From an uncultured Oscillibacter sp. (lineage in GTDB: Bacteria; Bacillota; Clostridia; Oscillospirales; Oscillospiraceae), in NCBI GenBank assembly GCA_905200545.1, contig CAJKKQ010000008.1, positions 59,614-123,613 on the forward strand: a stretch of 64,000 bases of DNA, in the 5' to 3' direction. The first letter of the stretch is position 1. Each line of letters opens with the position of its first letter. The notes beneath the pieces were generated by a model that had not been told where the DNA came from, ran no database searches, and saw only the letters and a program-made list of their open reading frames with translations. The translations under genes and the position numbers were made by a program. Shown piece by piece: positions 51,038-64,000 of the stretch.

Positions 51038-51328
51038 ATGAGGGATTACATGATGGCGCTGCACCAGCGGTTCTGCAAGGAGCCGGAGTGCCGGGAGGTA
51101 AGAAAAGCAGATTGTGGAAGTTGAACGAGAGCTCCGACAAGCACTGGACCGACGAGGGCAGGAGAAACTGCTGAAGCTGGTGGACCTGGAGAACGAGCTG
51201 TTGGATGAGATCTCTCTGGAAAGGTTCCTCTCCGGCTTTAAACTCGCCCTGGGGATTGCGACGGAACTGGCTTCCTCCTATTCCTTCGACGATGACGAGA
51301 AGCAACGAGCCTGCGAGGCTCTTCGGCA
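51038..51328 (+). pseudogene. DUF6809-like helper gene, frameshifted (copy F)
   Basis: The start matches the intact copy at 62777: MRDYMMALHQRF then CKEPECREVRK. A frameshift follows near 51105, and the rest (RGQEKLLKLVDLENELLDEI, then SLERFLSGFKLALGIATELA) continues in another frame to about 51328. The helper is broken in the same element whose integrase is also deleted. Confidence 0.75.
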
Positions 51329-51340
51329 AAGGAGGGGCGA

Positions 51341-51874
51341 GCGAAGGCAAAGAGGCGGGCCAATGGGGAAGGAAACATCCGCAAGGGGGAACTGGTTGCC
51401 ATGCGATGGGAGGACCTGGATATCCCCAACAAAACCATTTCCGTCAGCAAGCAGGCCACGAAGGATGCGGACAACCACCTGATCGTGGCAAGGCCCAAAA
51501 CCAAAAACTCCGTCCGGCTGATTTCCATTCCCCAGGAGGCGGTGGAGTTGCTGGCGAGAGAACACACCAAATATCCGGACAATCCCTGGCGCTTCCCTTC
51601 CTCCCAGACCGGAACCATGTACCACCCGCACTCCGTGGCCACCCTTCACCAGCGCATTCTCAAGGGCGACGGACTGGAGCACCTTCGGTTCCACGATCTC
51701 AGGCACACCTTCGCCACCCTGACCCTCCAGAACAGCGTGGACAACAAAACCGTCTCCGCTATGCTGGGCCACTACGACGCAGGATTCACTTTGCGGACCT
51801 ACACCCACACCACAAGGCAGAAACAGGATGAGGCCGCCCAGACCATGGGGAACCTCATGGCGCAGGTGCGGTAA
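51341..51874 (+). pseudogene. Tyrosine integrase with N-terminal half deleted (copy F)
   Basis: The frame reads KRRANGEGNIRK and then continues directly as GELVAMRWEDLDIPNKT. The normal protein has about 180 more residues between those points. Both deletion ends carry an IRK codon trio, which suggests deletion at microhomology and keeps the first catalytic Arg in place. The rest of the catalytic domain is complete: KQATKDADNHLIVARPKT, HLRFHDLRHTFATL, AMLGHYDAGFTLRTYTHTTR with HxxR, the last His and a Tyr. The original ATG is AAG here and no other good start precedes it. Confidence 0.82.
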
Positions 51875-53908: not shown

Positions 53909-54766
53909 ATGAAACAGAGCAAAAAGCGATTTCTGCTGCTTTGGATCTGCGTATGCGCCGTGCTGCTGGCAGGCGGTCTTCTGGCGCCTGGAGGCGGGGA
54001 ACAGGAGGCCATTCAAACCACCATGCGGGATGCCGTCCTGCACGAAGGGGACCGGATCAGCCTGTTTGGACTGCGTCCGGTAAACCCGGGGCTCATTTCT
54101 TCCCTGGTGGTGACCGTGGTGCTGCTGGCAGCCGCAGTCCTGATCCGGCTGTTCATCATCCCCAGATTTCAGTATGTCCCAGGAAAATTCCAGCTGATCC
54201 TGGAGCAGGCAGTGGGAATGTTTGACGGACTGGCCAAATCCAACAGCCCCTGGCGGAACGGCTTTTTAGGGGCGTATGTTTTCGCCGCCGGAACCTATAT
54301 CTTCTTCGGAACACTCTTTGAATTGTTTGGCTTCCAGGCAATCTCGGCCACCGGGCAGTCTGTCACCCTCCCGGCGCCGCTGTCCGACGTGAACGCAGCC
54401 ATCATGCTGGGCGTACTGTCCTATCTGGTGATTTTCTCCGGCGCCATCGCAGGAAACGGCCTGCGGGGCATCGGCAGCGCCCTGAAGGAGATCTCCCTGC
54501 TGATTTCCATGAGCTTTCGGCTCTTCGGCGCACTGCTCAGCGGCTTGCTGGTGACAGAGCTGGTTTATTACTACATCCAGCTGAGCTTTGTGCTGCCGGT
54601 GATCGTGGCAGTGCTCTTTACGCTGCTGCATGCACTGATCCAAAGCTATGTGCTGACCATGCTGACGGCGCTGTTTTACGGTGAGATGTCCGAACCGAAA
54701 GCCCGTCCAATCAAAGCCACCGGCAGGCACCCGGAGCCGGCGGAGAATGCCGCAATATCCAAATGA
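53909..54766 (+). CDS. atpB: F-type ATP synthase subunit a
   Basis: 285 residues. Subunit a conducts ions across the membrane past the c ring. The essential arginine is R204 in SMSFRLFGALLSG, in the expected helix. The Q/H/E-rich C-terminal helix continues HALIQSYVLTMLTALFYGEM. A hydrophobic N-terminus and an extended polar loop (about 27-60) precede helix 2. It starts the order a, c, b, alpha, gamma, beta, epsilon. AAGAAGGA precedes ATG. Confidence 0.93.
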   Translation: MKQSKKRFLLLWICVCAVLLAGGLLAPGGGEQEAIQTTMRDAVLHEGDRISLFGLRPVNPGLISSLVVTVVLLAAAVLIRLFIIPRFQYVPGKFQLILEQAVGMFDGLAKSNSPWRNGFLGAYVFAAGTYIFFGTLFELFGFQAISATGQSVTLPAPLSDVNAAIMLGVLSYLVIFSGAIAGNGLRGIGSALKEISLLISMSFRLFGALLSGLLVTELVYYYIQLSFVLPVIVAVLFTLLHALIQSYVLTMLTALFYGEMSEPKARPIKATGRHPEPAENAAISK

Positions 54767-54786
54767 TAAATATGGAGGTCTTTACC

Positions 54787-55158
54787 ATGCGTTTTGTAAA
54801 AAAATTCCCCGTTGTCTTTCTGATTTTGATGATGGTTTCCATGCTGGCCATTCCGGCCTACGCTGCGGATGAGGCAGAAGCCCCCGCCGAAGCCCAAACC
54901 GTAACGGAGACAACCACGACTGCGGAGGAATCCTCCGTGGGGCTCAAGGCTATTGCCGTGGGTGTGGCCATCGGCCTGGCCGCCGCAGGCGGCGCAGTAG
55001 GCATGGGCATCGTAGGCGGCAAGGCTGCCGACGGCATTTCCCGCCAGCCCGAGATGGAGGGGAAGATCCGTACCACGCTGATGCTGGATCTGGTGTTCAT
55101 CGAAACCGCAATCATCTATGCCCTGCTGGTGGTCATCCTGGTAATCTTTGTCCTGTAA
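54787..55158 (+). CDS. atpE: F-type ATP synthase subunit c with signal-peptide-like leader
   Basis: 123 residues from ATG 54787 (behind ATGGAGG); the usual length is 70-90. Residues 1-26 look like a signal peptide ending AYA before ADEAEA, followed by an acidic/Thr-rich linker (27-48). The mature hairpin has two helices with GMGIVGGKAADGISRQPEME between and the ion-binding Glu at E106 in DLVFIETAII. The Thr after E106 occurs in some Na+-type rings, but the helix-1 Gln of Na+ rings is replaced by Met, so H+ or Na+ remains open. Confidence 0.92.
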   Translation: MRFVKKFPVVFLILMMVSMLAIPAYAADEAEAPAEAQTVTETTTTAEESSVGLKAIAVGVAIGLAAAGGAVGMGIVGGKAADGISRQPEMEGKIRTTLMLDLVFIETAIIYALLVVILVIFVL

Positions 55159-55171
55159 AGGCGGTGCGGAT

Positions 55172-55675
55172 ATGAGTATTCCACTGAATATTGACTGGCA
55201 GCAAATCTTGCTGCATCTGTTCAATTTCGCCATTTTAAGCGGTGGGCTTTACCTGCTGCTCTACCGCCCGGTGAAAGCATTCATGGACCAGCGCCAGGCC
55301 TATTACCAGAACCTGCACCAGGAGGCGGAGCAGCTGAAAGAGCAGGCTGACCGGATGAAAGCCGATTATCAGTCCAAGATGTCTCAGGTAGAGGCTGACA
55401 TGGCCCGGCGCAGAGCCGACGCGGAGAAGGAACTGGATGCGCTCCGGGCCCAGCAGGTGGCTGCCGCCAAGCAGGAAGCGGAGGAAATTATCTCCAAAGC
55501 CCAAGAAAGTGCTCGGCGGGAGAAAGCGGAGGTGCTCTCCAAAGCCTCCAAGGAGCTGGTGGATATGGCGGTCACTGCAGCGGAAAAAATTGCACTGGGT
55601 TCCGAGGGCGATCCCTACGAGCAGTTCCTAAGCCTCGCGGAAGGGAGGGATTCCTGTGAGCAGCAATTCCAGTGA
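55172..55675 (+). CDS. atpF: F-type ATP synthase subunit b
   Basis: 167 residues from ATG 55172. One membrane helix near residues 9-31 ([20 protein letters not shown]) precedes a long Ala/Glu/Lys/Gln-rich coiled coil (about 40-140) that forms the peripheral stalk. The last 20 bp overlap the alpha gene. With no delta gene in the operon, the b tail must contact the delta-like extension of alpha. Confidence 0.9.
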
Positions 55676-57419
55676 GCCTACGGCCGTCCTTCGGGGAGGT
55701 ACCCCGCCCAGTGAGGAAAACCGTCAGCGGCTGCTGAACTTTTTGCAGCAGACTTATCACCGGGCATTCACCCTGGAGTGGGAGCAGGATGACACGCTCA
55801 CCGGCGGATTTGTGCTGCAGGTAGGCACGGACATCTATGACTGGAGCGTGGAGGGGCGGCTGCGTCAGTTTGAAGAACGGCTCAAACAGCTCAATCCCAC
55901 CAGAGATGATGTCCTGCCCCTGATCCGGGAGACCGTGACCAACTGGATGCCGGAGGTCTCGCCGGAGGAGGTGGGCCAGGTACTGACGGTGGGCGATGGA
56001 ATCGCCACCGTCTCCGGACTGGAGCACGCTGCCTACGGCGAGATTCTGGTGTTTGCCGGAGGTATCAAGGGCATGGTCCAGGAGCTCAAGGAGGATCAGC
56101 TGGGCTGCATCCTCTTTGGCGATGACCAGGAGATCACCCAGGGCAGCCGCGTCCGCAGAAGCGGCAAGATGGCCGGCATCCCGGTAGGCGACGCCTATCT
56201 GGGCCGGGTGGTGGACGCCCTGGGCTCTCCCATTGACGGCAAGGGCGAGATCCCCTCCGACGGCTACCGGCCCATTGAGTCCACGGCTCCCGCCATCATC
56301 GACCGCCAGGCGGTGAACCAGCCTATGGAGACGGGTATTCTGGCCATCGACTCCATGTTCCCCATCGGCCGGGGCCAGCGTGAGCTGATCATCGGCGACC
56401 GCCAGACCGGCAAAACGGCCATTGCCCTGGACACCATCCTCAACCAGAAAGGGAAAGACGTCGTCTGCATCTATGTAGCCATCGGCCAGAAGGCCAGTTC
56501 CGTGGCACAAGTGGTGGAGACGCTGGAAAAGTTCGGGGCTCTGGACTACTCCGTGGTGGTCAGCGCCTCTGCCAGCGATTCCGCCACGCTGCAATACATC
56601 GCCCCCTATGCCGGCTGCGCCCTGGGAGAGTATTTCATGAACAAGGGCAGGGATGTGCTGATCGTCTATGACGACCTTTCCAAGCACGCCATCGCATATC
56701 GCGCCCTGAGCCTGCTGCTGGAGCGCTCCCCCGGACGGGAAGCCTATCCCGGCGACGTCTTCTATCTCCACTCCCGGCTGTTGGAGCGCTCCGCCCACCT
56801 GTCGGAAGAAAAGGGCGGCGGCAGCATGACTGCCCTGCCCATCGTGGAAACCCAGGCAGGCGACGTGTCCGCCTATATCCCCACCAACATCATCTCCATC
56901 ACCGACGGTCAGATTTTCCTGGAGAGCGATTTATTCTTTGCCGGACAGCGGCCCGCCGTGAATGTGGGCCTTTCCGTCTCCCGTGTGGGCGGTGACGCTC
57001 AAACCAAGGCCATGAAGAAAGCGGCAGGTACCCTGCGGCTGGACCTGGCCCAGTTTCGGGAGATGGAGGTGTTCACGCAATTCTCCAGCGACTTGGACGA
57101 CTTGACCCGCAAGCAGCTGGTATACGGCCAGGGACTCATGCGCCTGCTGCGCCAGACCCAGTCCCACCCCATGTGCCAGCATCAGGAGGTCATCTTGTTG
57201 GTGGCTGCGCTGCGCCATATCCTGCAGGATGTCCCGCTGCGTCAAATAGATCAGTTCCGTTCCGACTTTCTTGCAAAAATGGAGCACGCAGCCGGTGACC
57301 TCTGCCGCCGGATCGATGAGACCGGCCAGCTGACCGATCAGGATATCCAATCCATCGCAGACCTGGCCCAGACCTTCACCGAGAAATGGCTGGGGGCCTC
57401 TAAGGCAGAAAAGGGGTAA
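55656..57419 (+). CDS. atpA: F-type ATP synthase alpha subunit with N-terminal delta-like domain
   Basis: 587 residues, about 80 longer than usual. Residues 20-80 read [16 protein letters not shown], then [20 protein letters not shown] then [12 protein letters not shown]. This matches the C-terminal domain of the delta (OSCP) subunit, where a GGF-x-ixVGD-x-xxDxSVxxxL pattern precedes a final helix. The alpha body follows: P-loop GDRQTGKT at 247-254 (about 78 residues further in than usual), and [17 protein letters not shown]. No separate atpH lies in the operon, so this is most simply a fusion that replaces the delta anchor. Start is GTG 55656 behind AAGGGAGGG. Confidence 0.9.
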
Positions 57420-57424
57420 GGCGC

Positions 57425-59729
<2,305 letters not shown>

Positions 59730-59730
<1 letters not shown>

Positions 59731-60137
59731 TGGAAGCATTCCAGGTCCATATTCTGGCATCCGATCATCCCTTTTACGAGGGGATGTGCTATTCCCTGAT
59801 CCTCCCCACTGCCGGAGGGATGTGCGGCATTCAGGCCCATCACAGCAACATGATCACAGCCCTGGTCCCAGGCACACTGACCTATCAGGTCCAGGAGAAC
59901 GTCTCCCAGGAGGCAGCGGTCTCCGGGGGCCTTGCCAAGGTGGAAAACGGCGAGGTTTTGATCCTGGTGGATACGGCGGAGCGGCCGGATGAGATCGACG
60001 CCAAACGGGCCAAGCGGGATGCGGATGCCGCCAAGGAGGCCCTGCTGCAAAAAAAGAGCATCCAGGAGTATCGGGCGGCCCAGGCCACCCTGGCCCGGGC
60101 CATCAGCCGCCTGCGGGTCAAGCGCCATTCCCGTTGA
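59730..60137 (+). CDS. atpC: F-type ATP synthase epsilon subunit
   Basis: 135 residues, normal length. The N-terminal beta sandwich (FQVHILASDHPFYEGMCYSL then MCGIQAHHSNMITALVPGTL) is followed by a two-helix C-terminal arm (DAKRAKRDADAAKEALLQKK). ATG overlaps the beta stop (TGATG). It couples the rotor to catalysis and may inhibit ATP hydrolysis through the helical arm. It is the last operon gene by order; no terminator is clear before the next gene. Confidence 0.92.
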
Positions 60138-62776: not shown

Positions 62777-63082
62777 ATGAGGGATTACATGATGGCCCTG
62801 CATCAACGGTTTCACAAGGAGCCGGAATGTCGGGAAGTCAGGAAGGAGCTGGAGGCGGTCCATCAGGAGCTCTACCAAGTGCTGGACGGGCGTGGGCAGG
62901 AGCAGCTGCTGAAGCTGGCAGACCTGGAGAACGAACTGCAGGAGGAGATATCCCTGAAAAGTTTCCTCTCTGGATTTAAACTGGCCCTGGGAATCGCAGT
63001 GGAACTGGCCCCCTCCTACTCCTTCGACGATGACGAGGAGCAGCGAGCCTGCGAAGCCCTCCGGCAAAGGAGGGGCAAGTGA
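62777..63082 (+). CDS. DUF6809-like small helper protein of the integrase element
   Basis: 101 residues and intact here. It reads MRDYMMALHQRFHKEPECRE, then LLKLADLENELQEEISLKSF then LSGFKLALGIAVELAPSYSF. This pattern of helices with a GFKLGxxI-type tail resembles the small DUF6809-like proteins that precede tyrosine integrases in Firmicutes; the family match is by eye. It overlaps the integrase start by the ATGA-type junction (TGATGG). Copies C and F carry broken versions. A role in recombination or its control is inferred. Confidence 0.65.
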   Translation: MRDYMMALHQRFHKEPECREVRKELEAVHQELYQVLDGRGQEQLLKLADLENELQEEISLKSFLSGFKLALGIAVELAPSYSFDDDEEQRACEALRQRRGK

Positions 63083-64000
63083 TGGCCAAGAAGCGGGCCA
63101 ACGGCGAGGGAAACATCCGCAAGCGGAAGGACGGGCGCTGGGAAGGTCGGTACACCGCGGGGTACGACCAGAATGGCAAGCAAATCATCAAGAACGTGCT
63201 GGGCAGGACCCAGGCGGAAGTGAAATCCAGGCCGGCCGTAGCGATTACGGAAAGCCAGCAGCTGGACGCCTCCCGATCCGGAGAGTACACCGTGGCAGAA
63301 TGGCTGCGGCTGTGGTTCGAGCTCTACGCCAAACTCACCAGCCGGGAGATTCAGAAGATGTACAAGGACCTGCTGGAAAACGGGAGACTGCGAAAAAAGC
63401 GGAGAAAGAAACACCCTGGTCTCAGCGGCTCCACAGTACGGGGCGTCCACATCATGCTCCACAGCGCCCTGGACCGAGCGGTGAAAGAGCGGCTGCTGAT
63501 CCGTAATCCCGCAGACAGCTGCGTGGTACCGAAAGTCCAGCACCAGGAGATGAAGACGCTCCAGCCAGAGGATCTGAAAGCCTACCTGGACGCGGCGGAG
63601 CGGCGGAACGCCCTGGCTATGTTCTATCTGGAGTTGGTCAGCGGCATCCGAAAAGGCGAACTGGTGGTGCTACAATGGGCGGACCTGGACGTGGAGCAGC
63701 GAACTATCCCCGTCAGCAAACAGGCTACCAAGGACGCAGATAACAATCTCATTGTGGCAAGGCCTAAGACTGAGAACTCCATCCGCCAGGAGGCGGTGGA
63801 CCTGCTTATCCAGGAGCACGCCAAGCACCCAAGTAACCTCTGGCTCTTCCCCTCCTCTCGCACCGGGGCCATGTACCACCCGAACTCGGTGGCTACCCTC
63901 CACCAGCGGATCCTGAAAGACGCCGGACTGGAACACCTCCGGTTCCACGATCTCCGGCACCCGTATGTCAAGCACACGACAAAAATTTTTAGCTTGCGCT
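63082..64000 (+). pseudogene. Tyrosine-type integrase, longest copy but internally deleted (copy G)
   Basis: The frame is open from ATG 63082 to the window edge (about 306 codons). N-terminal AP2-like DNA-binding (RANGEGNIRKRKDGRWEGR) and catalytic regions (VSGIRKGELVVLQWADLD, HLRFHDLRH) are present. Two losses are apparent. The SAM-like core-binding domain jumps from FELYAK to LTSREIQKMYKDLL, missing about 30 residues. The segment LISIPQ found in copy F is missing (NSIRQEAVDLL). After HDLRH the sequence diverges (63960 onward) and the last His and Tyr are not seen, so the gene is probably inactive. Confidence 0.78.

Follow-up and report, generated by a model that had tools for sequence, protein, structure and literature searches.

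The ion/ATP ratio of an ATP synthase is a basic bioenergetic constant, assumed to depend on the size of the c-ring. The closest described system is the engineered Bacillus PS3 enzyme of Ueno et al. 2025 (PMC12229609), in which the N-terminal domain of the δ-subunit was deleted and the remainder fused to the α-subunit. According to the available text of that article, in the resulting δ(ΔN)-α enzyme the fused domain docks b2, the mean number of stalks is two and the maximum three, and the H+/ATP ratio rises from 3.0 to 5.8. In the authors' view, the δ N-terminal domain, located on the three-fold axis, restricts the enzyme to one stalk. Three-stalk particles were very rare in cryo-EM, which was attributed to loss in preparation, and the pump activity was below that of wild type (PMC12229609). 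The same article reports a natural δ(ΔN)-α layout in Acidaminococcus fermentans, for which a multi-stalk structure is called “highly likely”, and its Discussion assigns similar features to UniProt entries G4Q3K6 and A0A1I2C5T3; natural multi-stalk enzymes remain there a suggestion drawn from few entries, and untested. As far as the accessible text of the sources goes, this is the only article found to describe a δ-α fusion in one open-access library, preprints excluded. Here we describe such a fusion in a stretch of 64,000 nucleotides from an uncultured Oscillibacter sp. (the window), together with its distribution among related genomes.

The ATP synthase operon and its fused α-subunit

The list of open reading frames and profile searches place seven ATP synthase genes on the + strand between positions 53909 and 60137, in the order a-c-b-α-γ-β-ε given by the original prediction. 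Subunit a (atpB, 53909..54766, +; 285 aa) scores 54.8 bits against PF00119 (cut-off 33.9), subunit c (atpE, 54763..55158, +; 131 aa) matches PF00137 at residues 64-126, behind an N-terminal extension resembling a signal peptide, and subunit b (atpF, 55172..55675, +; 167 aa from its ATG, with an alternative ORF start at a TTG at 55148) matches PF00430 with an E-value of 5.2e-18. These three subunits are divergent, lying above the Pfam cut-offs and below the NCBIfam equivalog cut-offs. They are followed by atpA (55656..57419, +), which starts with GTG and encodes an α-subunit of 587 residues with a δ C-terminal domain at its N-terminus, by atpG (γ; 57425..58333, +; PF00231), atpD (β; 58306..59730, +; TIGR01039) and atpC (ε; 59730..60137, +; PF02823 and PF00401). 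The NCBIfam cut-offs for F-type ATP synthases are passed by α (745.4 bits; cut-off 484.45), β (774.1; 462.85), γ (260.7; 194.45) and ε (91.2; 67.25). The expected absence of atpH from the operon was confirmed: the 3' end of b lies 20 nt inside the α reading frame, and the overlap leaves no room for atpH between the two genes. A GGGAGGG motif (55643..55649, +), read from the sequence as the likely ribosome-binding site of the fused α, is located within b, 6 nt upstream of the GTG. The C-terminus of b contains YEQFLSLAE and resembles b of other fused loci.

Residues 17-76 of α (55704-55883, +) match positions 112-172 of the 172-position PF00213 profile with 35.8 bits (cut-off 22.3; E 1.1e-8), in agreement with the δ C-terminal pattern proposed for residues 20-80 of a 587-residue α, and residues 1-91 alone score 40 bits. 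The matched part of the profile is the b-binding domain of δ; positions 1-111, which represent the N-terminal half capping the α3β3 head, are unmatched in this α. As a control, 24 separately coded α-subunits were searched and none displays a δ C-terminal match ahead of the core. TIGR00962 (profile positions 5-499) aligns from residue 84, giving a displacement of ~79 residues where ~78 had been suggested, and the P-loop GDRQTGKT occupies residues 247-254. The fused domain as a whole, supported by the PF00213 profile, the predicted fold and purifying selection, extends over residues ~8-78 (55677..55889, +) and is immediately followed by a retained α N-terminal helix at residues ~85-95 (55908..55940, +), where TIGR00962 begins and the model places a helix at 86-95. 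Comparison of residues 1-91 with PDB sequences revealed 12 distinct matches at E-values up to 1, all of them δ/OSCP, b-δ or engineered fusion chains; the best δ/OSCP match was weak (9itj_S, residues 16-74, E 8.6e-4). Over residues 15-564, the window α aligns with 9jc1_I, a chain labelled “ATP synthase delta subunit, ATP synthase subunit alpha”.

The AlphaFold2 model, calculated from an alignment of 37 rows, predicts a β-α-β3-α arrangement for residues 9-77, comprising a strand at 9-14, a helix at 20-34, strands at 39-44, 52-56 and 59-62, and a helix at 65-77. Block averages of pLDDT lie at 80-90 for residues 11-70 and at 76 for residues 71-80; the α core is modelled poorly (mean pLDDT 68). The fold check thus returned the δ-like fold that had been anticipated for the N-terminal residues. 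A Foldseek search with this model placed 9jc1_I, K and J at ranks 1, 2 and 5, with 573-575 columns against 475-516 for the other matches listed, at TM-scores of only ~0.5 because the core is poorly modelled. The best 50 VIA-align matches cover α cores only, and 9jc1 is not among the matches listed. Profile matches and predicted fold together support the identification of the α N-terminal domain as a δ C-terminal domain. There is next to no probability that the locus encodes an N-ATPase-like or other δ-less F-type variant whose N-terminal resemblance is incidental. N-ATPases do lack δ, according to the accessible part of PMC5706428, and the window α reaches 625.9 bits against the N-ATPase model TIGR03324, a value nevertheless below the cut-off of 750.5, whereas the TIGR00962 score exceeds its own. 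In addition, the N-ATPase gene order given in the available text of PMC5709465 is β-ε-a-c-b-α-γ, in contrast to the order in the window, and both the PF00213 match above cut-off and the δ-like predicted fold argue against an incidental resemblance. N-ATPase identity was ruled out by the TIGR03324 cut-off and gene order.

Two further features of the region were recorded. The N-terminal extension of c (54763-54940, +), of 50-60 residues, resembles a signal peptide followed by a linker and is likewise present in c of L003, L008, L014 and L058; most other c-subunits compared have 71-86 residues, and those of the canonical loci L032-L034 have 109. At the c ion site, GEGY with AETTGIY or AETTGLY (L030, L032) stands against GMGI with FIETAIIY in the window. 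Fused and canonical operons may use different ions, the c differences not deciding between Na+ and H+. The operon stretch is flanked by two sets of direct repeats, 79-84% identical (51038-51706 and 62777-63960), each consisting of a DUF6809 gene and then a tyrosine-integrase frame, which is shortened upstream and runs off the window downstream. Six flanking genes were searched for in 27 loci of relatives; the one match, to cytidylate kinase in L015, was weak. Judged from the repeats and the flanking genes, the operon may have moved.

Distribution, conservation and phylogeny of the fusion

One scan of species genomes yielded 27 loci, and 26 genomes were then searched (that of L021 was absent), 23 of which hold a fused α. 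Seven of the 23 (G001, which is Candidatus Ventrousia excrementavium, G002, G009, G010, G013, G017 and G018) also hold a separate full-length δ. In context, all seven separate δ genes adjoin their own b and c, and six are also accompanied by their own α, γ, β and ε, the contig of G010 ending next to δ; subunit a was recognised in only one of the seven (L033), with a distant query. The separate δ-subunits of these genomes belong to a canonical operon of their own. Accordingly labelled dual, six of the seven genomes have two β genes and G010 has three β pieces. Of 16 fused-only genomes, 14 have a single β match; G014 has two fragments, and in G007 there is none. Whether a separate atpH exists outside the fused operon, the point on which the original prediction could fail, was followed in relatives, with a divided outcome. 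The rows nearest the window in a 91-row tree are L001 and L002, whose genomes do contain a separate atpH, in a second, canonical F1Fo operon; in the genomes of the next nearest, L005 and L006, only the fused δ was found. The idea that fusion removes a separate subunit holds for the operon, which has no atpH, but understates the change, since the part lost is the δ N-terminal domain.

Of 391 genomes sampled from the same class, 37 carry a δ-α fusion (29 half-δ, 8 full-δ), counted as frames whose A2 match begins at position 25 or earlier and that contain no stop. Besides G001, 12 of these hold a separate full-length δ and 24 do not; eight additional fused genomes hold none. In total, a separate full-length δ accompanies the fusion in 19 of 67 genomes, and none was found in the other 48, of which those named are mostly metagenome assemblies of unstated completeness. 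Two fused-only genomes are nearly in one piece: G156 (a contig of 2.56 Mb in a genome of 2.6 Mb) and G231 (2.97 of 3.0 Mb). The assignment of five loci rests on the A2 match, as L043 and L050 have no match to the small C-terminal model and L044, L045 and L047 score below 8 bits; PF00213 falls short of its cut-off in the fused portions from G171, G339 and G133 and is not listed for that from G095. PF00213 matches extending back past a stop (G231, G306) were set aside after inspection of the frames before α in L075, in which b makes up the stretch ahead of the stop, and in L054, whose b occupies a different frame. In the family that includes G001, PF00213 matches occur in 45 of 61 sampled genomes and the fused frame in G001, G002 and G027 only, G041 being ambiguous, so the fused operon is patchy even there. 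The G041 match (G041:C11:29223-29423) is to a δ C-terminal domain in a 239-aa frame that is neither a normal δ nor a full fused α, possibly a broken frame. Agathobaculum butyriciproducens (G026) has two canonical F1Fo operons (L027, L035) with separate δ-subunits of two types, and G030, G056 and G069, from the same family, likewise have two separate δ genes each (L082, L083, L084).

At E-values up to 1e-3, 83 of 205 candidate proteins match residues 1-95 of the window α; some are fragments, and 79 of the 83 carry a precomputed PF00213 annotation; a search from the distant fused locus L016 found 241 proteins among 400 candidates (120 listed). Between L001 and L002, dN is 0.089 and dS 0.796 in the δ part (dN/dS ~0.11), compared with a dN of 0.031 in the α core, such that the δ part evolves faster. 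The δ-part dN/dS of the window is 0.22 against L003, 0.16 against L004 and 0.26 against L005; synonymous sites are saturated against L001 and L006. The fused δ domain is under purifying selection, less tight than that on the α core. It is highly improbable that the operon is a decaying or mis-assembled duplicate and the fusion a functionless δ remnant. The second, canonical operon of L001 and L002 would make loss of function tolerable in those genomes, but the sharing of the N-terminal part by so many proteins, the purifying selection acting on it and the exactly one β match of 14 of the 16 fused-only genomes contradict decay.

Four layouts occur among the loci. Apart from a separate δ, these are a full δ-α fusion of ~670-690 aa (L022, L023, L026, L048, L049 and L062-L067), the half δ-α fusion of the window type (~570-640 aa), and tandem δ C-terminal domains on α (~645-685 aa; L015, P0161, P0162, P0164, P0181, P0183, P0184, P0185 and P0188). 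In the full class, L023 is placed by length, its N-terminal half being unmatched by the small N-terminal model, and L062-L067 score only 5-6 bits in that model, with PF00213 positions 35-172 matched in their genomes. Loci of this class would place three whole δ-subunits on one F1 head.

An α-core tree without the fused part was calculated from 57 of the 91 rows, after 34 near-duplicates and long rows (among them L021, L053, L059, L013, L017 and L018) had been dropped. The window's clade comprises 21 half-fused and 4 tandem rows (support 100/100), and further half-fused rows lie outside it (L046, L051, L056; L069, L070, L074; L068). The half-fused state requires five changes on the tree, and starred branches force five; such counts do not separate gain from loss, and gene exchange between lineages may add to them. 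Forcing half-fused and tandem rows into one clade lowers the log-likelihood by 184 units (AU p 4e-7), and a single origin of the half-δ fusion was rejected; for all fused rows in one clade the cost is 250 units (p 6e-82). The group for the half-δ test was named after the first tree had been inspected, and the bootstrap of the 57-row tree had not fully settled. The sister of the window's clade, a 12-row clade (97/97), contains full fusions, the half fusions L046, L051 and L056, and separate δ-subunits, and this mixture suggests a path from separate δ through full fusion to loss of the δ N-terminal domain. Loss would follow full fusion because three full δ-subunits cannot share one position on the axis.

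Stalk number and the doubled δ domain

By analogy with the engineered PS3 enzyme, each fused δ domain probably holds its own b2 stalk and a-subunit, moving more ions per ATP. The fused domain on each α would dock a b2 stalk and, with the three-fold axis free of a δ N-terminal domain, stalks would occupy more than one of these docks. Every extra stalk would bring an a-subunit and multiply the ions per turn. In synthesis such an enzyme would act as a “low gear”, able to make ATP when the ion-motive force is low, in hydrolysis each ATP would drive more ions against a smaller gradient, and relatives with both operons would possess two gears, the canonical enzyme being the high one. The claim of three δ-like domains per F1, a stoichiometry unlike the usual one, was right, and that design is the one tested by Ueno et al. 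2025, in the available text of PMC12229609.

In 57 fused loci, a list that excludes L007 and L010 (cut by contig ends), b ends between -98 and +15 nt relative to the α start, the large overlaps resulting from over-long start calls. An F[L/I/F] motif, identified by eye, lies close to the b C-terminus in all 57 (window included, duplicate L036 excluded). Nothing in the operon indicates the additional supply of b and a that three stalks would require. A small model of the δ N-terminal domain, built from 8 canonical δ-subunits and applied to the sorted loci, found matches only in full fusions and none in half-fused loci, whether in a separate short reading frame or at the end of b. An unrecognised protein may have taken the place of the lost domain.

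It is possible, if doubtful, that the fused domain is a b dock of which one copy in three is used, leaving a single stalk and a fusion that merely spares a separate subunit and an assembly step. Natural F-type enzymes with solved structures are not known to have more than one stalk. Full-length δ-α fusions make up 11 of the 91 tree rows; with room for only one N-terminal domain on the axis, such enzymes seem to tolerate unused δ copies. However, half fusions, which lack the domain that enforces one stalk, occur in several separate places on the tree, a pattern to be expected if something beyond simple gene fusion were favoured, and the same layout gave multiple stalks in PS3, according to the available text of PMC12229609.

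The doubled loci bear on the docking role. A (δ-CTD)2-α arrangement occurs in five genomes of one lineage (G701, G711, G869, G879 and G858), in which no further PF00213 match was found at an E-value of 0.01. AlphaFold2 predicts two β-α-β3-α units in P0162, at residues 7-75 and 95-163 (12 rows, mean pLDDT 62). In the corresponding loci (L088, L089 and L096-L098), b is ~229-235 aa from its MPL start, compared with the usual ~160-173, and its C-terminus looks like an internal repeat, with self-alignment scores of 67-78 in L088, L089, L096 and L097 (none of 200 shuffles as high) and 48 in L098 (1/200). L099, nested in the doubled clade as sister to L098 (99/97), has a single δ domain and yet a long b (45; 2/200). 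In L100 and L101, which belong to the same family, a single δ domain goes with an ordinary b, and L015 combines tandem δ domains with an ordinary b of 161 aa. Co-doubling of δ and b is one event on the tree, and copy numbers are not strictly tied, as L099 and L015 demonstrate. That the δ domain and the b C-terminus doubled together supports the fused domain as the stalk dock. In L015 (L015:9728-11755), each repeat consists of a δ C-terminal domain and a copy of the α N-terminal helix; two other PF00213 matches in its genome (G015) fall below cut-off. The literature consulted, including the accessible text of PMC12229609, makes no mention of a lineage with tandem δ domains and a repeated b C-terminus.

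A wider proposal, for which we judge the chances slightly short of even, is that gut Clostridia have repeatedly made a three-fold, multi-stalk, multi-channel enzyme by placing the dock on α and losing the δ cap, that more than a quarter of the species examined pair this low gear with a canonical high gear, and that one lineage has six docks per head with doubled b hooks. A natural enzyme with several a-subunits, if real, would break the c-ring rule and require less ion-motive force for ATP, which would suit fermenting anaerobes. The survey supplies many candidate genomes, with lineages in which δ is separate, fully fused, half fused or doubled, and the genomes that hold both enzyme types permit their direct comparison.

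Comparison with described enzymes

The window has the δ(ΔN)-α layout, with a fused δ C-terminal domain, no δ N-terminal domain and no δ in the operon, and its fusion belongs to the kind already described in 2025 in the available text of Ueno et al. (PMC12229609). Added here are the class-wide distribution, the several positions on the tree, the co-existing canonical operons and the doubled lineage; recurrence, two operons per genome, full-length fusions and tandem domains receive no mention in the accessible text of PMC12229609. Like the window α, the engineered PS3 protein (9jc1) carries the δ C-terminal domain on the α N-terminus without the δ N-terminal domain, and in neither case is a separate δ present (in the window, none in the operon). 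In PS3 the domain is joined via a short linker; unlike the window enzyme, that construct is man-made and its ε C-terminus was removed, and its stalk number and H+/ATP ratio were measured. Acidaminococcus fermentans, G4Q3K6 and A0A1I2C5T3, compared through the authors' description, share the same fusion and the same missing domain (PMC12229609). The mycobacterial b-δ proteins of Gordonia and Mycobacterium, described in the available part of PMC5709465, resemble the window in that δ is fused to another subunit of the enzyme. Window b is not such a fusion, PF00430 being the only family above cut-off in its 167 residues. In the mycobacterial enzymes δ is carried on b, whereas in the window half a δ is carried on α and is hence present in three copies per F1.
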